From IMG/VR virus record IMGVR_UViG_3300009703_002664, positions 1 through 43,161 of that record: 43,161 nt of DNA; one strand, given 5' to 3'. Source of the stretch: a virus. The notes below the pieces were generated by a model. It ran no database searches. It had not been told where the DNA came from and saw only the letters and a program-made list of their open reading frames with translations. This document shows positions 1,368-30,477 of this stretch, one piece after another (positions within the stretch are counted from its first letter, which is position 1; every line of letters begins with the position of its first letter). A program made the translations under genes and the position numbers.

Positions 1368-2039
1368 CTACCCTCCGAATGAAGAGCTTGTTTCAGTCGC
1401 TATGAAATAACGAACCTTCGGAACACCTATAGCATCCCAACGAGAAATACCCTTTGAAGACACTTCAACGTCATAATCCCTCGGCAACAGCTTGAGGTTA
1501 TCGACCTTGAATATCAGGCGAAATTCATCTTGGGTTTCACCGACCGGAGTTTCAAACTTATTTGACCCCATATTCTTTGAGTCAAGTGCTGTAAGATATA
1601 CGGCAGAACCTTTACCGACGAGAGCAACCTCAGGCAGTTCGAGGATACCTGCCATTTTCAGAGCATTACTCATAGCATCGCTCTTAATCATGATTTTCAC
1701 GTCAGTAGATGGAATGGATAGTTCCTTATCAGGTGGGGTGATAATATTTCCCACATCAGCATAACTGATATATGCCTTGCCACCTGACCCATTCGTCACA
1801 GTTATCTGCTTTTCATCGAACCCAATATCGGGGTCTTGGAATGCCTGAAATGTGGATAAAAATTGATTCAGGTCGAATATAGCAAACCCGCGAGGAATAT
1901 CCTCAGAAATAGTCGCTTCAGCAAGCACACTTTTCTGGGGAGATACTGTTCGCAGACTCGTCCCTTCCTTAAACTGTAGGGACATATTAATTGCGGCGAA
2001 ATTCTTTAACACCTCAACTGTTGTCTCAGATATCTTCAT
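1368..2039 (-). CDS. 45: Sliding clamp, DNA polymerase accessory protein (T4 gp45-like)
   Basis: 223 residues, close to the 228 of T4 gp45, and alignable by eye along its length. The N-terminus (MKISETTVEVLKNFAAIN) matches the T4 start MKLSKDTTALLKNFATIN, and the domain-1 strand IFDLNQFL matches T4 IYDLNGFL. The family forms a trimeric ring that tethers the replicative polymerase to DNA and, in T4, is also the sliding activator of late transcription. That is relevant here because TATAAATA late promoters are present. A good Shine-Dalgarno (AGGAGA) precedes the ATG. Clamp loader and polymerase genes are not in this window. Confidence 0.9.
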   Translation of the reverse strand: MKISETTVEVLKNFAAINMSLQFKEGTSLRTVSPQKSVLAEATISEDIPRGFAIFDLNQFLSTFQAFQDPDIGFDEKQITVTNGSGGKAYISYADVGNIITPPDKELSIPSTDVKIMIKSDAMSNALKMAGILELPEVALVGKGSAVYLTALDSKNMGSNKFETPVGETQDEFRLIFKVDNLKLLPRDYDVEVSSKGISRWDAIGVPKVRYFIATETSSSFGG

Positions 2040-2945: not shown

Positions 2946-2953
2946 TATTTATA
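2946..2953 (-). promoter_or_regulatory. T4-type late promoter TATAAATA
   Basis: The minus strand reads TATAAATA, a perfect match to the T4 late promoter -10 element recognised by gp55-type sigma with the gp45 clamp. It lies 33-35 bp upstream of the glycosyltransferase start at 2911 and just downstream of a UUCG hairpin. It would drive that gene and then the clamp gene late in infection. Confidence 0.8.
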
Positions 2954-2959
2954 TGGGTT

Positions 2960-2981
2960 GTCGGGGACCGAAGTCCCCGAC
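2960..2981 (-). terminator. UUCG-tetraloop hairpin terminator or processing hairpin
   Basis: On the minus strand a perfect 9-bp GC-rich stem (GTCGGGGAC pairing with GTCCCCGAC) is closed by a TTCG tetraloop. C(UUCG)G loops are typical of T4 intercistronic terminators. No strong U-tract follows. Instead the late promoter begins within about 10 bp, so the hairpin may end early readthrough from the HTH gene or protect the 3' end of that mRNA. Confidence 0.65.
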
Positions 2982-3015
2982 TTCCCAAGAGAGGAGAGAT
3001 AAAAATGCCTTGCTC

Positions 3016-4590: not shown

Positions 4591-6954
4591 TCAAGCAGCT
4601 ATTTTATCAATAAATTTACTCAGGATAACACGACTGGTTTTGCGCTTGCTGTTCGCCTTAATGAAAGCACGCGCCATTTTACCTTTGGTTTCACCAACTG
4701 GGATATCGTCTAAACTGGTTGCCTCAGTTTCTAATGCGTCACCACCCATAATCACGTGAACCTCATCGAATCCTGCCGTGTTGGGAACACTCATATGCTT
4801 TTGTTTTCTCCATAATTTCCTGATTTCTTTGACTTCATCATCATCAATCCAAGGATTTTTACCAGCATTTGCGCGAGATTCTCCTATCATTTTAATAAGG
4901 TTATAAGGATAACCACGTTCTGGAGTAATGTAAAAGTTGATGATATTAACATCACACGATTTCCGAATGACATTCAGCATATATTCAGTTTGCCCATGCC
5001 GATTATTCCTATATTCTTCCTTGTTGGTCAATTTTGTGATAGGATCACGGATTATCAAGTGACGAGAACCAACTAGGTTACCAGTATCATCATAATGACC
5101 AGCTGCTATTAGATGATCCCTATCATACGAGAAACCATTGGATTCACCGTCGGTCAAACAAACGAAATTTACTATCTGGGAATTGGTTTCTTTCCGGAAA
5201 TCATTAATCAGATCTCTACAATAAACCAAAGATTGATTTAATGGGGTTCCACCAAGAGAAAGAACAGTTGACCTCCAAGCTGTCAGACCTCTATTTTCTT
5301 GGGTGTACCATCCACGAGTGTATCTACCACCATAGTGATAATGACATTCGCTACCAAAATCTAGCAGGTATTTGGTCATTTCAACAAAATCTGAATTATT
5401 CATCTTCTCAGTGTATAATTCCATGAGGCAGCAGTTACTTCTATCCAACAACCCATCTTTTTTCATTTTATAAGATGAAAATACTTCCTTCAATCCTTCA
5501 TAATAATCTTCGGTCCTGATATTATCGATAAATCCATAAACACGATGGGGGATATTGACCCTCCGACAAAACATAACAAGATTTACCAATTGCTCGATTG
5601 TTCCTTTCATATTTTCTGCCATTGAACCAGAGAAATCGACTAACATGACCAATCCATGGTTTTTAGCGTCAGGAAGAACCGAAATGCGTTTGAAAATGGT
5701 TTCACTGTATTTGTAGGAATGTAACTTAGTAGGATCAATAACACCAGTTTTTGCGTCACGGGATCTGCTATACTGATCAGCTGCTTTTTTCATCTCAAAC
5801 TCTTTTACAAGATACAGGACATTTTTCTTATTGGCAGAGACAAACTCGGAATATCGAGTTTCAGTATTTGCATCCCACTCTTTTACACGCTCAGGTAAAG
5901 AAGGATCCTCTGGATAGATAAGACCCTTTCTCATGTCGGCACGGAAAATACGAATAGTATCCTGAATTAATTTGTAAGGAATTATATGTTTTTTATAATC
6001 ATACAACCTCTTGAGCTCGACATAAGTCGTAGGAATAGCAGACTCGTCGACTAACTGATCAATCATATTTTTTTCTAGATTTTCATCAGTCGTGGCAGTT
6101 ACTTTATCGTTCCAGTCATCACCGCCATTGCGACCACCTGAATCATTTTCACCGTCATCATCGTCATATTCACCGCTGGCATCAAAATCACCTTCACCTT
6201 CGCCATCAGTTTCTTCATCATCAGTTTCTTCATCAGTTTTTTCTGAGTTGGCAGGAGAGGAAGGAGTCGAACCCTCGTCTTCGGATTTGGAATCCGCTAT
6301 GTTACCATTGTCACCACTCTCCTCGAAGTCGCCATCTTCATCCCAATCACCGAACTCATCACTCATTTCACCGAAATCGTGATCTTCATCAGTTTCAGCA
6401 GTTTCTTTTGCATAAGCAAGCATTTCTTCTGAAAGAAGAACGACATCATCAAAAGTTGTGGTAGACTCTACACGTTCCACATATTTCATTTCCTCAGATG
6501 AAAACGTGACATCCATAGAGGAACCTAATTTGAAATATAGATTTACACGGTCGATAAAATTCATTTTTTCGGTTGGTTTATATTTAACACCAAAAATGTC
6601 TCGGTCATAGATTTCTTTATATCCAACCGTGAAATCCCGACGTGACCCAGGATATTTGTTTTTCATATTCCGCTCGATACGAGCATCTTCTACAACGTTC
6701 ACATATCCTTTGAGTTTCTTGCTGTCCTTGACTGCATCAACCCAGTCTTCCTCGGGAGTATATAAAGCATGACCAACCTCATGGAGGATCAAGAGGTGAT
6801 ATAATTCCTTACTCATTTCTTTCCACAAAGGAAGAGTGAGGATTCGAGATTTTACGTCAAATGAAGCTGTAGGAACCTTGCGGTGTTCAACCGTGATATT
6901 TTCGGTTGCTAGAAGATTCGTCAGCTTGTCAAGATTAGGAGTGGTGGTTGTCAT
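4591..6954 (-). CDS. cobT: VWA-domain protein with N-terminal HExxH motif (CobT-like)
   Basis: 787 residues from the ATG at 6954. A TTG five codons upstream is in frame but would leave no ribosome site, whereas GAGAGAGA precedes the ATG. The N-terminus carries a zincin-type HEVGH (58-62) and a second acidic motif VVEDARIE (about 87-94), as in CobT/VWA metalloprotease-like proteins. A long Asp/Glu-rich linker spans about 190-290. The C-terminal half is a von Willebrand A domain with a MIDAS DFSGS near residue 438 and a later TDGES. It is the expected partner of the AAA ATPase downstream, forming a MoxR-VWA type remodelling pair. Whether the HExxH site is proteolytic is not known. Confidence 0.85.
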   Translation of the reverse strand: MTTTTPNLDKLTNLLATENITVEHRKVPTASFDVKSRILTLPLWKEMSKELYHLLILHEVGHALYTPEEDWVDAVKDSKKLKGYVNVVEDARIERNMKNKYPGSRRDFTVGYKEIYDRDIFGVKYKPTEKMNFIDRVNLYFKLGSSMDVTFSSEEMKYVERVESTTTFDDVVLLSEEMLAYAKETAETDEDHDFGEMSDEFGDWDEDGDFEESGDNGNIADSKSEDEGSTPSSPANSEKTDEETDDEETDGEGEGDFDASGEYDDDDGENDSGGRNGGDDWNDKVTATTDENLEKNMIDQLVDESAIPTTYVELKRLYDYKKHIIPYKLIQDTIRIFRADMRKGLIYPEDPSLPERVKEWDANTETRYSEFVSANKKNVLYLVKEFEMKKAADQYSRSRDAKTGVIDPTKLHSYKYSETIFKRISVLPDAKNHGLVMLVDFSGSMAENMKGTIEQLVNLVMFCRRVNIPHRVYGFIDNIRTEDYYEGLKEVFSSYKMKKDGLLDRSNCCLMELYTEKMNNSDFVEMTKYLLDFGSECHYHYGGRYTRGWYTQENRGLTAWRSTVLSLGGTPLNQSLVYCRDLINDFRKETNSQIVNFVCLTDGESNGFSYDRDHLIAAGHYDDTGNLVGSRHLIIRDPITKLTNKEEYRNNRHGQTEYMLNVIRKSCDVNIINFYITPERGYPYNLIKMIGESRANAGKNPWIDDDEVKEIRKLWRKQKHMSVPNTAGFDEVHVIMGGDALETEATSLDDIPVGETKGKMARAFIKANSKRKTSRVILSKFIDKIAA

Positions 6955-6978
6955 CGTTCTCTCTCTCAATTATGATTA

Positions 6979-7549: not shown

Positions 7550-8241
7550 GGCTTAATCGCAATGAATCCCGTAAAAGAATGATTCTGCCAAAACGAGTCT
7601 ATCTGCTCGAACCCAGCATCCTTGCACATATCAATCAGGTCATTGCGTGTATCGGGTTTCTGCATGTGCCTCAGTTCCTGCTCTTTGGTCATAATATCTT
7701 CATAATCAAAGTTTTCACGCTTGAAATCATAATAGGTGAAGGTTCGGATATCATGAATCATACTATGAGGAGACATAGTCTTTTCAGCAAAAACAAACCC
7801 ACCACCCTTGTTTAATGCCTTGTATATCCTTTTTACCGTTTCGAGTCTATCAGCTCTAGGCATAAACTGTAATGTGAAAATAGATGTCACAAATGAGGTG
7901 TTTTCAAAAAATATGGTCTCACGGACATCACGATTCCTGAAATACACAGATTTTTCTTTTTGACGAAATTCATCTTCGAGTTGATCCAAACCAGGATAAC
8001 CAAAGAAATCTTCTTCAATTTCTATTCCCTCCCATTTTACATCTTGAACCCAAGTGTTCCGCTCTACCATCGCGCTTATCAATTTACCAGTTGAACAACC
8101 TATATCATAGACCCAAGTATCATCCTCTATGAAATACTCGGATATCTTAATAACGTCATTCCACAGGTCAGAATACCTGCGGATTGATAGATCAATATGC
8201 TCATCGAAACCTTCAGGTCTTTGTGCGAACGTAAACTTCAT
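7546..8241 (-). CDS. CmoA-like class I SAM methyltransferase-fold protein
   Basis: 231 residues, near the 247 of E. coli CmoA, and alignable along its length by memory. An N-terminal FDEHIDLSIRRYSDL-like segment is followed by SAM motif I VYDIGCSTGK (44-53). FTLQFMPRADRLETV corresponds to CmoA FTLQFLEPSERQALL. Later come a YYDFKRE segment (CmoA HHDFKRA) and a C-terminal AGFEQIDSFWQ. CmoA makes carboxy-SAM for wobble-uridine modification of tRNA. The Arg of CmoA KARLHNAGF appears to be Met here, so it may bind ordinary SAM and act as a methyltransferase on another substrate. Its position after the inositol and TET genes leaves tRNA or DNA-base tailoring open. Confidence 0.75.
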   Translation of the reverse strand: MKFTFAQRPEGFDEHIDLSIRRYSDLWNDVIKISEYFIEDDTWVYDIGCSTGKLISAMVERNTWVQDVKWEGIEIEEDFFGYPGLDQLEDEFRQKEKSVYFRNRDVRETIFFENTSFVTSIFTLQFMPRADRLETVKRIYKALNKGGGFVFAEKTMSPHSMIHDIRTFTYYDFKRENFDYEDIMTKEQELRHMQKPDTRNDLIDMCKDAGFEQIDSFWQNHSFTGFIAIKP

Positions 8242-20967: not shown

Positions 20968-20978
20968 GGGCTAAATAT
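20967..20978 (+). promoter_or_regulatory. Possible late-type promoter for the plus-strand island
   Basis: The plus strand reads GGGCTAAATATG. GCTAAATA matches the T4 late box TATAAATA at six of eight positions. It lies about 20 bp upstream of the first plus-strand gene (20997) in the only intergenic gap available to it. No sigma70-like pair is evident on this strand, so this is the best candidate but a weak one. Confidence 0.35.
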
Positions 20979-20996: not shown

Positions 20997-21275
20997 ATGG
21001 ATTTTCTATCATTTGTAAGCGATGTCGGGTTCCCTATAGCGGCAGCAGTTGCTGGTGGGTTTTTCGTGTTTTTAACTATCAAATATATTTTAGATAGTGT
21101 CACAGGATCTATAAAATCATTAAGATCCATCATACAAGCATTGGATAATCGCGTGCAGACTATGAATAATGACGTAACAAAAATTGATGTTCTACTGTCG
21201 TATGCTTTAGGGGTGAAACCAAATATAGACAGATTAGCAGCGAATGAAGGTAAAGAGGACGCAAGGAGAGATTGA
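20997..21275 (+). CDS. Single-pass membrane protein, paralogue A (holin-like layout)
   Basis: 92 residues: a short N-terminus, one membrane helix (about 10-31, VGFPIAAAVAGGFFVFLTIKYI), then a helical coiled-coil-like cytoplasmic part. The G-F-P-I-x-A-A start of the helix and overall plan are shared with the next gene, so the two are paralogues. The layout recalls BhlA/UviB-type holin-like peptides, but no lysis gene is adjacent. GAGGTGA lies about six bases before the ATG. Confidence 0.68.
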   Translation: MDFLSFVSDVGFPIAAAVAGGFFVFLTIKYILDSVTGSIKSLRSIIQALDNRVQTMNNDVTKIDVLLSYALGVKPNIDRLAANEGKEDARRD

Positions 21276-21553
21276 TGGATTTAGCAGACGCGATAGGGAA
21301 ATATGGATTTCCTATCATAGCAGCAATGGGTTTAGGATATTTTGTATATTATATTTGGAATTGGGTTACAAATGAAGTCAAACCAATTTTAGGGGAAACA
21401 TCCGCAACCCTCATAGCGTTGATTGATAGAATCAGAATGTTAGATAACGATTGTATTCGTCTTACCCAAAAACTAAATATGGTATTAGAGTACAAAGATC
21501 CGGACTGGGAAAAATACACGACTGAAGAAAAGAATGAAAAGAAGAAAAAATAA
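21275..21553 (+). CDS. Single-pass membrane protein, paralogue B
   Basis: 92 residues from ATG 21275, which overlaps the TGA of paralogue A (TGATG), with GGAG seven bases upstream. The membrane helix (about 10-32, YGFPIIAAMGLGYFVYYIWNW) is followed by a soluble helix and a Lys/Glu-rich tail. Similarity to the upstream gene in the GFPI-AA motif and in spacing indicates duplication. The pair may form a hetero-oligomer in the inner membrane. Confidence 0.68.
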   Translation: MDLADAIGKYGFPIIAAMGLGYFVYYIWNWVTNEVKPILGETSATLIALIDRIRMLDNDCIRLTQKLNMVLEYKDPDWEKYTTEEKNEKKKK

Positions 21554-22830: not shown

Positions 22831-23756
22831 GGTTTAGATATCCCAAGTTCCTTATATAAATCATCGAACATATAATCTAAAGGATTTTCTAATTTTTTAA
22901 CTCGCTGTAAGTTATCCTTGACTGCAGTCATTTTACTTAAATATAATTCTTTACTCAATTGCTTTAAATTGAAATCCGGTTCAAGAAATATAATACCATC
23001 CTCATTGAAGAAATGAGTAATCTTTTTAGAACCCCAATAAATCGGTATAGTTCCTGTAGCAAAGCAGTCTAAAACTTTTTCTGTAATCCATACATCAGTT
23101 CTTGCATTTTCTACTACCACCGAAAACATATAATCACAAAGTCCCTCTTCTTTAGTTTCGATTGTTAAATTATCTTCAGGTCCTGCTCCTCCTCTAGTTC
23201 TATCCTTTCCAAATAAATTAAACCTCCCTACATTTTCTGGATCTCTTTCTTGTTTCCTCAATTTATCTACCCAAGTGCATCTTATTCTTTGCCCCTCGGT
23301 CATTTGCTTGAGCGAAGCAATCATAGAACACATGTGAGTTTTCGGATATATCTTGGGGTCTTTAATCCAAAAACCATTACCCAATAAAAACTTAAATTTT
23401 GTTGGATCAGTTCGAACTAGATCGTAGTCATGGGTGTATAGGTATTTAAATCCGTCACCCCCAAACCAATGAGAAAGGTTGTTTGCAACTTTATCATAGT
23501 GCTGACCATGAAGTTCCCTTGGTTCTTGAATCCAACCGATCTTAGTTCCCGTTTTCCCGTGCTTATGAACTTCATGAAATGCGTCACTTGTGAATAAATC
23601 GAAAACCCCTTCACCCGCATGAGGACCATGTAGTCCCGGAAGTATTTCAACTGTTTTTGCTACTTTTCCGGCAACTGCATTACAACCCGCGCTATGTCCG
23701 TTGCCCTTACATTTATCCCAATAGTTTATTTTGATTCTATTTTGTGGTGCTGACAA
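22821..23756 (-). CDS. GT10 family (fucosyltransferase-like) glycosyltransferase
   Basis: 311 residues. The C-terminal signature of alpha-1,3-fucosyltransferases is clear: FSVVVENARTDVWITEKVLD followed by GTIPIYWGSKKI (about 211-246), matching the family pattern E-N-x5-T-E-K ... I-P-I-Y-W-G. The donor would be GDP-fucose or a related sugar. The start is TTG at 23756, strongly supported by GGGGAGGGG just upstream inside the cyclase gene. It is the last gene of the amyloid/cyclase operon and could modify a surface glycan or the secreted proteins; this is inferred. Confidence 0.82.
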   Translation of the reverse strand: MSAPQNRIKINYWDKCKGNGHSAGCNAVAGKVAKTVEILPGLHGPHAGEGVFDLFTSDAFHEVHKHGKTGTKIGWIQEPRELHGQHYDKVANNLSHWFGGDGFKYLYTHDYDLVRTDPTKFKFLLGNGFWIKDPKIYPKTHMCSMIASLKQMTEGQRIRCTWVDKLRKQERDPENVGRFNLFGKDRTRGGAGPEDNLTIETKEEGLCDYMFSVVVENARTDVWITEKVLDCFATGTIPIYWGSKKITHFFNEDGIIFLEPDFNLKQLSKELYLSKMTAVKDNLQRVKKLENPLDYMFDDLYKELGISKPQL

Positions 23757-25758
23757 ATTCCCCTCCCCAATTTTCGGGAAGAGGTGTGGTCTTATATTTC
23801 TCTATCCGTTCAATCATCATATCATAATATCCTGAAAGTTTTTCATCAAACTCCCCAGCTAATTCTATTGCAAACTGCCTAGCGTTTGCCCAATCCTGAG
23901 CGCGATATCTCTCCAAAAATATCTTATGTAGTTTTGTATCGTAAGTCTTATCTAAAATCGTATATATTGCAACAGGTTTTGTTTTGCCCTTAACCACCAA
24001 TAAATCTAATTCTATACAGGGATACTCAGGAAGTTGCTTTACTGTTTCTTCACCAAGAATAATATCAACTGAATATGATTTACTTTGACCTTCAAGGCGA
24101 GCAGCTAAATTAACCGAGTCGCCAAGGCATGTATAATCGAAACGCTGATCACTACCCATATTGCCGACCACAACACTACCAGTGTTGATCCCAATACCCA
24201 TTCCAAATGGCGGGGTTCCTTCCACTGAAACTTCATCATTAAATTCCTCCAATCGTTTCATCATTGTTAAAGCCGTATCAACCGATTTCTTAGCATGATC
24301 CGTATCATCAAGCGGAGCATTCCAAAATGCCATCTGAGCGTCACCAATATATTTATCGATAGTACCATTATTCCCTAGTATGCTTTCTGACATAGCAGTC
24401 ATATATCGATTCATTATTTTTGTTAAACCTTGGACATCTTTACCATAATGCTCAGATATAGTAGTGAAACCTCGCACGTCGGTAAACATAATAGAAAGAT
24501 CCCTAGTTTCACCACCAAGTTTCAACAGGTCTGGATCTTTCTGTAATTTCTCAACCATATCGGGAGAAAGATATGTTCCGAATTGCTTTTTAATTTGTTG
24601 CTTGAGGCGATATTCTTCCATAAACCGAAGGAACGAAGCAATTGCCCAAGCAACAAATATAGTTATTACAGGATAAGACCAATCTATTAAATAACTATGA
24701 TTAACGAAAAGATAATGACTAGTGTAATATGCACCGCCTAATGTTAACGGTAGAAGAACCGCACCAAAATACCACTTCAAAGTAAGAACTACAGCACAAA
24801 CAATCAGAGCTAATATAAAAGAAACACCCAGCTCGCTTAAATCTGTCCAAAATGGTCTAGAAATATTTCTTCCCGTCATCATAGTTGCAAGAGCAGAACC
24901 GATAAAATCGTGCGAGTGAATAACTCCTACAGGAGTTGTTACGGGATTGTCCAATCCTGTCGCAGTCATACTCAATATTACTATTTTCCCCTTGATGTCT
25001 GGAAGTTTTTCATGCAACGCATGTACAGGAGTTTTCCATTTAAAATCTAACCATATACTCCCATGCGGATCTGTTTTAATAATTTTATATTTTGGTATTC
25101 TAACAGCTTCTACACCAGCAATACCAGTTTTCATCTGATAAGATATATCACCTGCCGCCATTCGTAGGACTTCCAAACTGATAGAAGGATATACTTCATC
25201 CCCAACTGCAATTACCAGAGGCATACGTCTCACCACGCCATCTTTCTCAGGTGCAATAATCATCATCCCGACAGCATTTGCATTTTTAGCAAGTTCTGGT
25301 ATTGGTCCAAGAGCACCACTATATTGGTACACCCAACCTTTCCACGGTTGACCTACCTTTGCGACTCCTCTTGTCACACCGGAACTGCTATTATCATTAG
25401 TTGGAATTTGCCCTATGATTGTAGGACTACGTTTTAATGTTTTTGCGAGAACTGCGTCTTTTCCGAATCTGTCCTTGTCTGCAAAAAGGATGGGAAGTAC
25501 AACCAAACCAGCACCTTGCTGATACAGTTTGATAATTTCTGTGGACAGTGTACTTCTGTCCCATGGCCATTGACCTCGTTTTTTGATAGTTTCATTATTA
25601 ATTTCTACTGTTACCAGATTTGAAAGTGACTGTGTAACTTGATTGCGCTGATGTTGATCTAGTGCTTTCATTCGCACCATATCTAAAAACCAAGGGTCTG
25701 AATAGCGAATGCCACATAAGACTAATATAACTAAGATAGATACAATCCATTTTTTCAT
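23737..25758 (-). CDS. CHASE2-domain class III adenylate/guanylate cyclase
   Basis: 673 residues: N-terminal membrane anchor (about 5-20), extracytoplasmic CHASE2 sensor domain (about 30-300), three membrane helices (about 308-385), then a class III nucleotide cyclase domain (about 410-600). The metal-binding Asp are in IMFTDVRGF (about 426) and KYIGDAQMAFW (about 474). The DYTCLGDSVNLAARLE block (about 540-556) holds the purine-site and transition-state Asn and Arg. All key residues are present, so it should make cAMP or cGMP. Full-length CHASE2 cyclases are bacterial membrane sensors and very unusual in phages. It follows the FecR and curlin genes with a 1-base gap, as in bacterial FecR-CHASE2 clusters. 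Confidence 0.88.
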   Translation of the reverse strand: MKKWIVSILVILVLCGIRYSDPWFLDMVRMKALDQHQRNQVTQSLSNLVTVEINNETIKKRGQWPWDRSTLSTEIIKLYQQGAGLVVLPILFADKDRFGKDAVLAKTLKRSPTIIGQIPTNDNSSSGVTRGVAKVGQPWKGWVYQYSGALGPIPELAKNANAVGMMIIAPEKDGVVRRMPLVIAVGDEVYPSISLEVLRMAAGDISYQMKTGIAGVEAVRIPKYKIIKTDPHGSIWLDFKWKTPVHALHEKLPDIKGKIVILSMTATGLDNPVTTPVGVIHSHDFIGSALATMMTGRNISRPFWTDLSELGVSFILALIVCAVVLTLKWYFGAVLLPLTLGGAYYTSHYLFVNHSYLIDWSYPVITIFVAWAIASFLRFMEEYRLKQQIKKQFGTYLSPDMVEKLQKDPDLLKLGGETRDLSIMFTDVRGFTTISEHYGKDVQGLTKIMNRYMTAMSESILGNNGTIDKYIGDAQMAFWNAPLDDTDHAKKSVDTALTMMKRLEEFNDEVSVEGTPPFGMGIGINTGSVVVGNMGSDQRFDYTCLGDSVNLAARLEGQSKSYSVDIILGEETVKQLPEYPCIELDLLVVKGKTKPVAIYTILDKTYDTKLHKIFLERYRAQDWANARQFAIELAGEFDEKLSGYYDMMIERIEKYKTTPLPENWGGEFVSTTK

Positions 25759-25759
25759 C

Positions 25760-26572
25760 CTAATTGCCTTGTGTTACTGAAACAGTACAACCCCCACTAG
25801 TATAACAATTTTGTGTTAAAGAATATGATTGATTAGTATTGCCTCTTTGTGTAAGTGTTATATCAGTATGTTCAGAACCATATAGATTAACAACAGCGGT
25901 ATGATCCCCATCTCCCTTTTGCATAACCTCTTGCTCTCCACCATCCGTTCTGATATCCATTCTTAAATCTTTATTCCCATTTCCTTTTTGAGTGACAAAG
26001 GTATCGTTGTTATCACCACCATAATAATATATCTGTGCATAGTGGTCAGCATTTCCTGTTCCTGTTTCTTGTCCTATCTTTAGATTGTTACCATGTGCAT
26101 GTATATCTATGTTGATTGTATGACCACCATATTCAGAATTGGGTGTAGTGCCAGAACACGTTGTATCTGTGCTACTAGAAAATGTTGCACCCTGACAAGC
26201 ATGAACAATATTGTTATTGCCAGGCATATGAAAACCTATTCGATTGGAATCTGAACCTGTAGTATTGGTCTGTTCAAACTTAAGATCATTATTCGTACCA
26301 TCTAAATCACCGCCCCAAGATTTTCCAGATCCCCAATAAGAGACCCAACTTACTGTGTTATTATTTCCTACTTGATCAATATCAATTGTATTATCGTCAT
26401 GTGCTATACTAAGATCAACAGAATTATCATTACCATCCTGATTGATGGTTAATGTTAAATCGTCAGCAGTTCCAACCTGTTCGATGTTTATGCTATTACC
26501 TGCATAGGCAATACTACTCAGACTGAAAAATAACAACAGTGTTGTCAATATCGTCTTTAGTTGAAAATTCAT
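25760..26572 (-). CDS. Curlin-repeat amyloid subunit-like protein 2
   Basis: 270 residues. A Sec signal peptide (MNFQLKTILTTLLLFFSLSS to about AYA-23) is followed by many curlin-type repeats of the form I-x-Q-x-G-x-x-N: NIEQVGTADD, TINQDGNDN, DIDQVGNNN, VTQKGNGN, VMQKGDGD, TLTQRGNTN, and VSVTQGN at the C-terminus. CsgA/CsgB subunits have the same Q-x-G-x-x-N pattern and polymerise outside the cell through the CsgG pore. The repeats are less regular than in CsgA, with a Cys pair in the middle and another near the end. The first 59 nt lie inside the end of the FecR gene in another frame. Confidence 0.8.
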   Translation of the reverse strand: MNFQLKTILTTLLLFFSLSSIAYAGNSINIEQVGTADDLTLTINQDGNDNSVDLSIAHDDNTIDIDQVGNNNTVSWVSYWGSGKSWGGDLDGTNNDLKFEQTNTTGSDSNRIGFHMPGNNNIVHACQGATFSSSTDTTCSGTTPNSEYGGHTINIDIHAHGNNLKIGQETGTGNADHYAQIYYYGGDNNDTFVTQKGNGNKDLRMDIRTDGGEQEVMQKGDGDHTAVVNLYGSEHTDITLTQRGNTNQSYSLTQNCYTSGGCTVSVTQGN

Positions 26573-27602
26573 TGACGGGAATTCCTCCCTGAGTTAAATT
26601 AATTTCGTATCCATAATCATTATTTAGTATGAGATCGATAGTGCTATTTCCAAAGTAACGAATGATTCTAGTTTCGTTCCCATCTATAATCGTGTTCACT
26701 TGACTGATTTTATTAAATCCTGACGTTCTACCATCTATATGCTCGTCACCCCTTTTCTTTTTATCTAATGCGGTAACTAATTGATCTAGAATATTTAACA
26801 ATAAATCAACATCTAAAGGATTAACATCTAACAAACCAAACTCTAACTCATCTTCGTCTAATTGATTTTCATCCAAGTCTTTAAATTCTAATAAATCTAT
26901 ATCAAGAAGATTCTTAATATTCTTACTATCTTTAACAAGAGCAATTATCTTTTCTTTTGGCGGTTTAATAATCAGCAAATTATTAATTTGATCTATTGTG
27001 AGATCAAGGACAACAGGTTTAGACGGATTTGTTTCAGAAGTGCCTACCATCGTAGACTGAAATGCTTGAGTAAGAATAACTTGCCCCGCATCACTCTCTA
27101 CTGAAATTTCACCAACTGAACCATCTTTATTAGGTAAAAGAATAACAAGAGATCTACCAACCTCATCAACGGTCATACTGAAAGCTGTACCGCGAACACC
27201 TATTCTTGCAGTGGGTGTACGGATATCAACATTTTGTTGATTTAATTTTGCAATATTACCACTAGCATATCTCACCGTTCCAAGAGCGATGTTCATAACT
27301 AACTTCGACCCTGTACGAGAATTAGGGTCATATACAAACTCATCAATTATCAAAGAACTGTGAGAACTCACAGCGACATTAGTATCATCAATAAATCTGA
27401 TACCAACGTCGCCCTTCCCTGTTCTTACATTATCCTTAAATTTAATTCCAGAACCCTTCTCTAGAATTGTCGATTTTCCTGACCTTTCTACAGAAGCGTT
27501 GCCTTTATGCTTTACTACATTACCAATACTTGCATACGCTGTGCTGGCAAATATTATAAAACTAATCGTCCACAGTAACCGTAACACTATGACCAGCTCC
27601 AT
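26514..27602 (-). CDS. FecR-domain exported protein
   Basis: 362 residues. A signal peptide (VLRLLWTISFIIFASTAYA, about 6-24) is followed by a FecR domain (about 25-165) with the typical FKDNVRTGKGDVGIRF and VDIRTPTARIGVRGTAF stretches. A middle region is a run of Leu-Asp-rich units (about 235-275, DLLEFKDLDENQLDEDELEF type). The C-terminus has a curlin-like INLTQGG. FecR domains occur in envelope sensors and S-layer-like proteins and are often next to CHASE2 cyclases. Here it lies between two curlin-repeat genes, so it may be a minor fibre component or sensor. The start overlaps curlin 1 by 41 nt. Confidence 0.82.
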   Translation of the reverse strand: MELVIVLRLLWTISFIIFASTAYASIGNVVKHKGNASVERSGKSTILEKGSGIKFKDNVRTGKGDVGIRFIDDTNVAVSSHSSLIIDEFVYDPNSRTGSKLVMNIALGTVRYASGNIAKLNQQNVDIRTPTARIGVRGTAFSMTVDEVGRSLVILLPNKDGSVGEISVESDAGQVILTQAFQSTMVGTSETNPSKPVVLDLTIDQINNLLIIKPPKEKIIALVKDSKNIKNLLDIDLLEFKDLDENQLDEDELEFGLLDVNPLDVDLLLNILDQLVTALDKKKRGDEHIDGRTSGFNKISQVNTIIDGNETRIIRYFGNSTIDLILNNDYGYEINLTQGGIPVNEFSTKDDIDNTVVIFQSE

Positions 27603-28251
27603 TGGTTGTCATGACAACAGTGGAATCATGAGCACCATCTTGTGTAATTGCAAATGTACCAGATGAACCAGTATGAGACAATGTAGTATCATGATCTCCA
27701 GCACCAGCATGAGTTGTTGTCACTGTATTGCTACTTCCTGATATAGTAACACTAGTCACTTTCTTATCATCACCAATCATTGTTGCTGTACTGTTCTCAT
27801 TAATAGTAACAGTGTTGCTATCTCCTGTGGCAACAAGGTCAATATCTGCATCACCAGATGCAGCAGTTTTACCCACGTTTACAGTAGTTGTATTAGAACT
27901 ACCAGTAATGGTTTGTATAATACTGTTATCAGCAGCTGCAGAGTTTTCACCAACCGATACTGTAGATGTATTACTATTACCCTCTTGTTTAAGAGTTATC
28001 GTTTGATCAGCACCAACAACAGATGCAGCAATTGTATTAGTGTTACCAATTTGGTCTATATCCAATGTTTGATTATCACCTGTATGTGTCGCAACTGTAC
28101 CTGAAACACCATACTTATTGGTTTGACCATCTTGATTGATATTTGCTGTAAAACTTGCACCAGACTGAGTGATATAAACATCACTTGCTAATGCCACATT
28201 CGTTCCCATCATCAGCATACCCATAATAAAACTAAGTATGCGTTTTCGCAT
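27562..28251 (-). CDS. Curlin-repeat amyloid subunit-like protein 1
   Basis: 229 residues. A signal peptide (MRKRILSFIMGMLMMGTNVALA) is followed by repeats with the curlin spacing: YITQSGASF, NINQDGQTN, DIDQIGNTNTI, TLKQEGNSN. The C-terminal half changes to Ser/Thr-rich units (G-S-S-N-T and G-D-S-N-T) that keep the Asn/Thr ladder but lose most of the Gln, as in diverged or nucleator-type subunits. It starts one base into the stop of csgG (TAATG). It should be exported and assembled by CsgG/CsgF. No CsgE or CsgC is seen in the window. Confidence 0.8.
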   Translation of the reverse strand: MRKRILSFIMGMLMMGTNVALASDVYITQSGASFTANINQDGQTNKYGVSGTVATHTGDNQTLDIDQIGNTNTIAASVVGADQTITLKQEGNSNTSTVSVGENSAAADNSIIQTITGSSNTTTVNVGKTAASGDADIDLVATGDSNTVTINENSTATMIGDDKKVTSVTISGSSNTVTTTHAGAGDHDTTLSHTGSSGTFAITQDGAHDSTVVMTTNGAGHSVTVTVDD

Positions 28252-29051
28252 TATTCTTCCTCCTCTGTTTCTTTAAATTCCCATAGTCCATTTTTGGCAC
28301 CTTTTTCTATTAATTCGCATATAGATTGTTCTATAGCTTTTATAACAGCATAACTTACGGATTCATTTTCAGTAAATCCTACTTCTGTTTCTAACAGTTT
28401 AGTTCCCATATCTAAGAATTTAAATACACTACCAGTTAATCTATAGCTCAATATTGTTTTCTCAGCACTCACTGCTAATAAAACTTCTCCTGTTTGGACT
28501 GAAACTAATCTCAATCCGACAGATACAACATCCCTTCTATATTCATCATTAATTCCTATACCAAGATAACGAGCACCACTTCCTCCGGTTTCTATATTAG
28601 TATCATATCCTACAATTCCACCCTCTATCAAGACACCAGCAAACAGAAGTGGTTTTATTTTCTTTGCCTTTTCTCCTTCATACGTTGAACGTGTGCTTCG
28701 GATTATTTGTCGTTCTTTTACTAAGTTATCTAATCCAACTCGTTCTAATACCTGAAACCATTCGCCTCTTCCTGCACTTTTTAATGCTTGAATTAACCAT
28801 ATTTCTGGAGCTTGGGTAACAGCAGAACTCAGCAACGCAACACTTGAACTAGGTTTCCTTTGACCAGTATTATCCGTAAATTTGTAGACCGCTATTGTCA
28901 CCTTCCGTTTGGGTGGAGGGTAATCTGCCAGTTTATTGACGAGAGGTTTTACTATGGTTGTTGGTTGTTCTATCTCCTCTACAGTAGCACAACCGACAAC
29001 ACTAAAAAGTAAAATCGCCGATAGGAACGGTAATAACAGTTTGACTGCCAT
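28251..29051 (-). CDS. csgG: CsgG-like curli secretion channel lipoprotein
   Basis: 266 residues from ATG 29051. A lipobox gives Cys21 (LLFSVVGC). The body aligns with E. coli CsgG in many blocks: VAVYKFTDNTGQRKPS (CsgG VSVYNIQDETGQFKPY), VLERVGLDNLVKERQIIR (PLERQGLQNLLNERKIIR), VEGGIVGYDTNIETGGSGARYLGIG (its full counterpart is present in CsgG), KTILSYRLTGSVFKF, ETEVGFTENE. CsgG forms the nonameric outer-membrane pore that exports curlin. The first 50 nt overlap the csgF 3' end in another frame. Presence of the pore in a phage implies a Gram-negative host envelope. Confidence 0.93.
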   Translation of the reverse strand: MAVKLLLPFLSAILLFSVVGCATVEEIEQPTTIVKPLVNKLADYPPPKRKVTIAVYKFTDNTGQRKPSSSVALLSSAVTQAPEIWLIQALKSAGRGEWFQVLERVGLDNLVKERQIIRSTRSTYEGEKAKKIKPLLFAGVLIEGGIVGYDTNIETGGSGARYLGIGINDEYRRDVVSVGLRLVSVQTGEVLLAVSAEKTILSYRLTGSVFKFLDMGTKLLETEVGFTENESVSYAVIKAIEQSICELIEKGAKNGLWEFKETEEEE

Positions 29052-29457
29052 TTGGATCAACTATTGTTAGAGTTACATTTTCGCTATCCTTCAGATAACT
29101 TATCGTTGTACCTTCAAAGGTAACAGAACCTTCTGTACCTGAATCTTCACCAAACATACTATCAACCAACTGTTTAGACAGCTGGGCATATATCCGAGAT
29201 TCTACATTTTTCATAAATTTTGCGAGATTAGTGTTAGCTGCATCTCTAGCAGCTTGCCTGGCATCAGCAGCTTTTTTATCTTCTATTGCTTTATTTCTCG
29301 TGAACTCCTGATTTTCAATAGTCATCACGTGTGCACTGTATCCCTGCCCACTAAATGCAGGAGATTTGAAAGAATGCGTTAATTGACCAGCTTTTAATCC
29401 ATTCGCAGCGTTTAATAATAACAAAACCATGATAAAAGTGCCGACTGAATGAGTCAT
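29002..29457 (-). CDS. csgF: CsgF-like curli assembly factor
   Basis: 151 residues with a signal peptide (about 1-23, MVLLLLNAANGLKAG). The mature N-terminus QLTHSFKSPAFSG corresponds to CsgF TMTFQFRNPNFGG, the segment that in E. coli inserts in the CsgG pore. A helical linker rich in Ala/Arg/Asp (about 55-90) leads to SQTVITVPIGDF at the end, like CsgF STIQVSGL. CsgF caps the pore and couples secretion to fibre nucleation. It is the first gene of the operon, with AAGGTG six bases from the ATG, directly behind the late promoter at 29490-29497. Confidence 0.85.
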   Translation of the reverse strand: MTHSVGTFIMVLLLLNAANGLKAGQLTHSFKSPAFSGQGYSAHVMTIENQEFTRNKAIEDKKAADARQAARDAANTNLAKFMKNVESRIYAQLSKQLVDSMFGEDSGTEGSVTFEGTTISYLKDSENVTLTIVDPNGSQTVITVPIGDFTF

Positions 29458-29489
29458 ATCTGCACCTTTTCATTGTTAAAAGAACGAAC

Positions 29490-29497
29490 TATTTATA
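29490..29497 (-). promoter_or_regulatory. T4-type late promoter TATAAATA in front of the amyloid operon
   Basis: The minus strand carries a perfect TATAAATA, preceded by AA and followed by GTTCG, 33 bp upstream of the csgF ATG. Expected start near 29484. It overlaps nothing but the last bases before the SprT stop (29499). It implies that CsgF, CsgG, curlins, FecR and cyclase are made late, with virion genes. Confidence 0.82.
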
Positions 29498-29498
29498 T

Positions 29499-29789
29499 TT
29501 ACAGTTCGTATCCAACTTCTTTTGCTACCTTTTTAAATTTTGTGAATGATCTTCCGTGGTCTGGTTCTTTATCCAAAATTTGTATCTGATATAAATGAAC
29601 CAGTTCGTGTGCTATAGTCGTAGCACAATCAGTTGCTGTTGGAAAACGATCTGATAGACCAATGATAGGGAACGGATCATCTATCTCCTGAAGGCAATAT
29701 CCCCACTCGGTATCGAGTTTTTCAATCACAATATCAACTTGTTTAAGGTTGAGCGCGTCATCAAAAAGTAGTGAATTGATGCGCTTCAT
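29499..29789 (-). CDS. SprT-like zinc metallopeptidase
   Basis: 96 residues containing IAHELVHLYQIQ (about 60-71), the HExxH of SprT-like proteins. A downstream HGRSFTKFKKVAKEVGY fits the family's third His and C-terminal helix. It has no signal peptide, so it acts in the cytoplasm. Its stop lies two bases from the late promoter. Family members cleave DNA-protein crosslinks or act in recombination; the substrate here is unknown. Confidence 0.75.
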   Translation of the reverse strand: MKRINSLLFDDALNLKQVDIVIEKLDTEWGYCLQEIDDPFPIIGLSDRFPTATDCATTIAHELVHLYQIQILDKEPDHGRSFTKFKKVAKEVGYEL

Positions 29790-30448: not shown

Positions 30449-30477
30449 ATTCTACCCTAAAAAGCCACAATTGTCAA
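30449..30477 (-). promoter_or_regulatory. Early sigma70-type promoter
   Basis: Minus strand TTGACA (30477-30472), 17-bp spacer starting ATTG, TAGAAT (30454-30449), with AGCC/GGCT flanks. Expected start near 30442. It serves the small-gene cluster 30415-29845 and probably SprT. The upstream gene's stop (30481) is four bases from the -35 box. Confidence 0.82.

Follow-up and report, generated by a model that had tools for sequence, protein, structure and literature searches.

A probable T4-type late promoter in a conserved place before the amyloid and cyclase operon of a T4-type phage

What turns on an amyloid operon carried by a phage, and at which stage of the infection would that happen? The question is raised by a window of 43,161 bases (the whole stretch of viral DNA analysed here), in which a Pfam search gave the gene order csgF-csgG-curlin-fecR-curlin-cyclase (Table 1), which qualifies as a phage curli (T8SS) operon. 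The window is a fragment of a T4-type phage: its gp45, gp61 primase, nrdA/nrdB, RNase H, cobS-type AAA and vWA genes match those of Pelagibacter phage HTVC008M, and a megablast of the window against isolated phages returned no match. ARAGORN also calls a tRNA-Trp (6249–6323, minus strand) that falls within the vWA-type gene itself (4591–6969) and is probably a false positive. The same six-gene order was found in HTVC008M and in Methylophilales phage Melnitz, and it is the order of the curli (type VIII secretion) operons described for these two phages and for HTVC023P-type podophages (PMC9599517). Our analysis indicates that a T4-type late promoter very probably heads these genes in the window, as the only conserved core-promoter element before them, and that it would give the operon a late start insulated by a hairpin.

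Table 1. Positions of the operon, its putative signals and other features of the window, with the closely spaced starts of HTVC008M in the last row
Feature	Position	Strand	Evidence
csgF	29002..29457	-	Pfam PF10614, E 1.5e-20; true CsgF
csgG	28251..29060	-	Pfam PF03783, E 8e-55
Curlin-repeat protein 1	27562..28251	-	Pfam PF07012, 21.2 bits against a cut-off of 20.7
FecR-domain protein	26514..27602	-	Pfam PF04773, E 9.4e-7
Curlin-repeat protein 2	25760..26572	-	Pfam PF07012, E 1.4e-6
CHASE2 adenylate/guanylate (class III) cyclase, last gene of the operon	23737..25758	-	PF05226, E 4.4e-36; PF00211, E 6.8e-21
SprT-like gene of the upstream unit, ending just before the box	29499..29789	-	Pfam PF10263, E 8.8e-6
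T4-type late box TATAAATA, at -13 to -6	29490..29497	-	Sequence; kept at operon head in relatives
Predicted transcription start (+1), 27-nt leader	29484	-	T4 late promoter geometry (PMC2988020), predicted
Shine-Dalgarno-like AAAAGGTG before csgF	29463..29470	-	Sequence
Terminator-like hairpin ACGAACTGT-AAATATAA-ATAGTTCGT, then TCTTTT	29484..29509	-	Fold; box spans loop and 3' arm
Sigma-70-like (early-type) promoter TTGACA-17-TAGAAT, upstream unit	30449..30477	-	11/12, consensus match only
Other perfect copy of TATAAATA, upstream of gp45 and 34 nt from the start of the gene at 2911	2946..2953	-	Sequence
gp45 sliding clamp, T4 late transcription component	1368..2039	-	phrog_223, E 1.7e-61
Late box of variant form, GCTAAATA, with a 19-nt gap to the small membrane gene pair	20970..20977	+	Sequence, lineage comparison
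Small membrane protein TM1 (phrog_18771), which in most relatives comes first in the csg operon	20997..21275	+	Weak holin match, E 0.0027
Small membrane protein TM2 (phrog_18771)	21272..21553	+	PHROG match
Genes of HTVC008M (L067-L069) with a 5-nt gap from box to start	6280, 7562, 16007(-), 18916(-), 19456, 31132, 49760, 75559, 142360		

The original prediction had placed a perfect T4-type late box 33 bp before csgF, and the scan of the window found it there: the minus strand, which is also that of csgF, reads TATAAATA from 29497 to 29490, with its last A 33 positions upstream of the ATG at 29457 and a gap of 32 nt between box and start. Two perfect matches had been claimed and exactly two exist, the other at 2946–2953, also on the minus strand; counting the motif and its distances to starts, the check proposed at the time, gave gaps of 32 and 34 nt. 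The prediction had also taken this rarity as an argument against chance, and here it failed, since shuffles of the window give 3.99 ± 1.94 copies, so that two represent no enrichment and lie below the chance expectation. Placement is more telling than number, as both copies are non-coding, intergenic and in the sense orientation at the distances given, compared with 12 of 308 occurrences (3.9%) lying sense and 20–50 nt upstream for the 55 remaining arrangements of these eight letters in the window. T4 late promoters, which depend on gp55, gp33 and gp45, have the identical 8-bp TATA box and no −35 element (PMC2988020), and the distance from box to ATG in the T4 late region has its mode at 27–28 nt, to which the 32 nt of the window are near. 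The marine T4-like cyanophages S-PM2 and Syn9 use the same motif with a relaxed first base, NATAAATA, and cyanophage late promoters have been reported ahead of genes homologous to T4 late genes, with no mention of an amyloid operon (PMC2984593). By the geometry of T4, host RNA polymerase carrying the late sigma factor gp55 would read the box, gp33 would couple the gp55-polymerase to the replication clamp gp45, and the RNA would begin at about 29484, leaving a short leader with a ribosome site before csgF. A difference from T4 is that gp55 does not lie on the window fragment.

The case is carried by conservation among related phages. A first set was made up of 64 IMG/VR loci drawn by the CsgG of the window, together with HTVC008M, Melnitz and the window itself, and reduced to 36 non-redundant csgF lineages; a box was scored as a sense N(A/C)TAAATA no further than 80 nt from the leading gene of the operon, with dinucleotide shuffles as the control. 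By this rule, 33 of the 36 lineages have a sense NATAAATA or NCTAAATA box in front of the csg operon, against 4.1 ± 2.0 in shuffles (maximum 11 in 300), and a looser choice of start raises the number to 35. In a second set of 66 new lineages, fetched with a CsgG alignment when the rule was already fixed, the box is present in 45 (6.4 ± 2.2 in shuffles, with a maximum of 13) and missing from 21. A division of the box-less lineages into podophages and myophages by T4-type core genes in their flanks did not succeed, as the flanks were too short. The box is specific in strand and in place: its antisense form precedes csgF in only one of the 36 first-set lineages, and it is absent before csgG (0/26) and FecR (0/15) and nearly absent before the two curlin genes (1/34 and 1/23). 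In addition, permuting the letters of ATAAATA leaves the actual word at the top for the 80 nt upstream of csgF, with 16 of 36 lineages in sense and none in antisense. The SprT-like gene upstream gave no relatives by search, so the exact SprT-csgF junction has no comparison partner. Two other records deserve mention: a 338-kb IMG/VR contig (L129) holds a csg operon with the box as well as a gp55-like sigma factor gene, and OR851715.1, a 1.5-kb record labelled 'Salmonella phage', has a csgG homologue over about half of its length and is possibly host DNA.

The box tracks whichever gene comes first in the operon. Most relatives have a pair of small membrane genes directly before csgF, and in these the box lies ahead of TM1, of csgF, or of both. 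Seven first-set lineages, the window among them, have the pair on the other strand and roughly 7–9 kb away; in all seven csgF has a box of its own, and in five the pair keeps one as well. Two further lineages, in which the pair was not seen, also have the box directly before csgF, which makes nine of nine first-set lineages that lack the pair upstream. The pattern is looser in the second set, where seven lineages encode the pair on the strand opposite to csgF and four of these have a csgF box. The box before the pair in the window is the variant GCTAAATA, whose C in second position resembles an Aeh1 variant cited in PMC2988020, and the two phrog_18771 proteins may be the histidine kinases of PMC9599517.

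If the box marks where late transcripts begin, the operon may also be reached from upstream. Two sigma-70-like sites matching 11 of 12 consensus positions lie on the csgF strand about 1–1.3 kb upstream (30477 and 30750), the gap between the SprT-like gene and csgF is only 41 nt, and overlapping early and late promoters have been described in cyanomyoviruses (PMC2984593). An early transcript from one of these sites could thus run through the SprT-like gene into csgF, with the late box only boosting expression. We regard this as unlikely, though it is the most serious of the alternatives, because a hairpin of high predicted stability, ending in a T-rich tail, lies exactly between the SprT-like unit and csgF, and because sigma-70-like sites occur in the scan at the level of chance (41 against 39.6). 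The 26-nt hairpin folds at −13.3 kcal/mol (z −3.15), with none of 200 shuffles as stable; its stem has nine pairs, only three of them G-C, and its tail is TCTTTTAA. Terminator-like hairpins adjoin the box in other lineages too, which also argues against read-through: they were found at five of the 35 sites with a box, where 0.1 would be expected, two of the five (L057 and L048) having an identical hairpin sequence. Hairpins around the box occur in few lineages, however, and are not a general feature. Being AT-rich and followed by a short T run, the hairpin may terminate leakily.

The preferred reading, a late promoter set within a putative terminator, has a precedent in gene e of T4, where the promoter lies inside a hairpin that is formed by the longer upstream transcripts and not by the late one (PMC3014915). 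The same would hold in the window, where the predicted start at 29484 is the last base of the hairpin. RNA running in from the upstream unit would fold into the hairpin and tend to stop there, whereas late transcripts would lack it and begin where the early ones stop. The two cases differ in that the gene e hairpin masks the ribosome site, while that of the window ends before the ribosome site and looks terminator-like; because the ribosome site is left unmasked, insulation by termination is the better reading. The hairpin could in this way end upstream early transcripts at the point where late ones start.

It might also be asked whether the box is a −10 element of host sigma-70 and not a promoter for gp55, since TATAAA differs from TATAAT at only one of six positions and the region is AT-rich. 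This is very unlikely, and the sigma-70 reading was rejected for want of a −35 element: whatever the spacing, only 0–2 of six positions match TTGACA at the window site, which has no extended −10 TG either, and the sites of 35 aligned relatives show no conservation and low information content at −35. The variants found, NATAAATA, CCTAAATA and GCTAAATA, resemble late-promoter variants of S-PM2 and Aeh1 (PMC2984593, PMC2988020). Moreover, the box goes with virion genes in the two isolates. With classes that we assigned from the annotations, it precedes 13 of 34 structural but one of 21 replication genes in HTVC008M (p 0.005), and nine of 30 structural but one of 22 replication genes in Melnitz (p 0.02). 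Both phages encode gp55 (phrog_234), a gp33-type late-transcription coactivator and gp45. That the box is a chance eight-letter word in AT-rich DNA, for which two copies where four are expected might speak, is highly improbable, because its position and strand are conserved across lineages against the shuffle, antisense and internal-gene controls, and it is this placement and conservation that contradict chance, copy number proving nothing.

A late promoter at the head of the amyloid and cyclase genes is therefore supported by conservation, by the tracking of the operon head, by the missing −35 element and by the virion genes of the isolates. The original prediction had gone further and assigned these genes to the time class of virion and lysis genes, of which the promoter type is well supported and the exclusivity is not. 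In long relatives with the layout of the window, boxes do precede tail-fibre, baseplate and virion structural genes, as identified by PHROG profiles, which replaced direct matching because most structural genes in the three long relatives have diverged too far for it. The box is also found before gp32 and before nrdA in relatives, and the second perfect copy of the window heads a unit containing gp45; the box by itself therefore would not denote virion or lysis genes. Around this second copy (2946–3000, minus strand), a strong GTCGGGGACTTCGGTCCCCGAC hairpin is followed by TATAAATA, then by a phrog_1574 gene and gp45. The window has seven recognisable replication or nucleotide genes, and all of them start without a box nearby. 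As to the late transcription factors, gp45 alone was found in the 43-kb window, a fragment, with gp55 and gp33 not found there; neither was found in several contigs of the same layout, and gp55 searches in related fragments were mostly empty, all of them being fragments for which absence is not implied; part of the related contigs do have gp55/gp33. Late timing of the csg operon is plausible.

The relatives point to a second arrangement of late boxes. In HTVC008M, a gap of exactly 5 nt lies between the end of NATAAATA and the ATG of nine annotated genes. Among these are csgF, with its start at 7562, gp48, two genes for baseplate wedges, the tape measure and the DNA end protector. Other permutations of ATAAATA are absent at this spacing in the genome, and three more genes, the cyclase among them, have NCTAAATA there. 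Gaps of 4–6 nt were found in none of 13 cases in the T4 late region and none of six in a Syn9 stretch. With a 5-nt gap and the geometry of T4, the late mRNA would start on the A of the ATG and be leaderless. The cyclase has its own box 4–7 nt before its start in nine of 27 lineages, HTVC008M and Melnitz included, which suggests a second late unit in these relatives. The csgF of the window has an ordinary box spacing. We lean towards the view that this group often makes leaderless late mRNAs, and that the operon of the window would instead have a leadered promoter within an insulating terminator hairpin.

The csg operons of pelagiphages and Melnitz have been described before (PMC9599517, PMC7029224 and PMC9004378), with no account of how the operon is controlled: for Melnitz, 15 late promoters are counted and none is assigned to csg in the passages of PMC9004378 consulted. 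Late-promoter prediction in pelagimyophages had been reported as unsuccessful (PMC7029224), and late boxes are now found in them. Curli transcripts occur in ocean metatranscriptomes, where infection timing is not given (PMC9599517), and the published pelagiphage RNA-seq that a search turned up concerns podophages and not the curli-bearing myophages (PMC12753301). The promoter itself would be a signal of a well-known type, and what is worth following, in our view, is its conserved place before a phage amyloid operon, together with its setting inside a terminator-like hairpin and the spacing in relatives that would give leaderless mRNAs. The role of phage curli is disputed, with an uptake pore, cell clumping, lysis timing and a superinfection block all having been proposed. 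A conserved late promoter would place curli expression after replication begins, a simple prediction that can be tested in the two cultured phages, and such late expression would fit roles in the exit phase, such as lysis timing or fibres on dying cells, better than an early takeover of the host.
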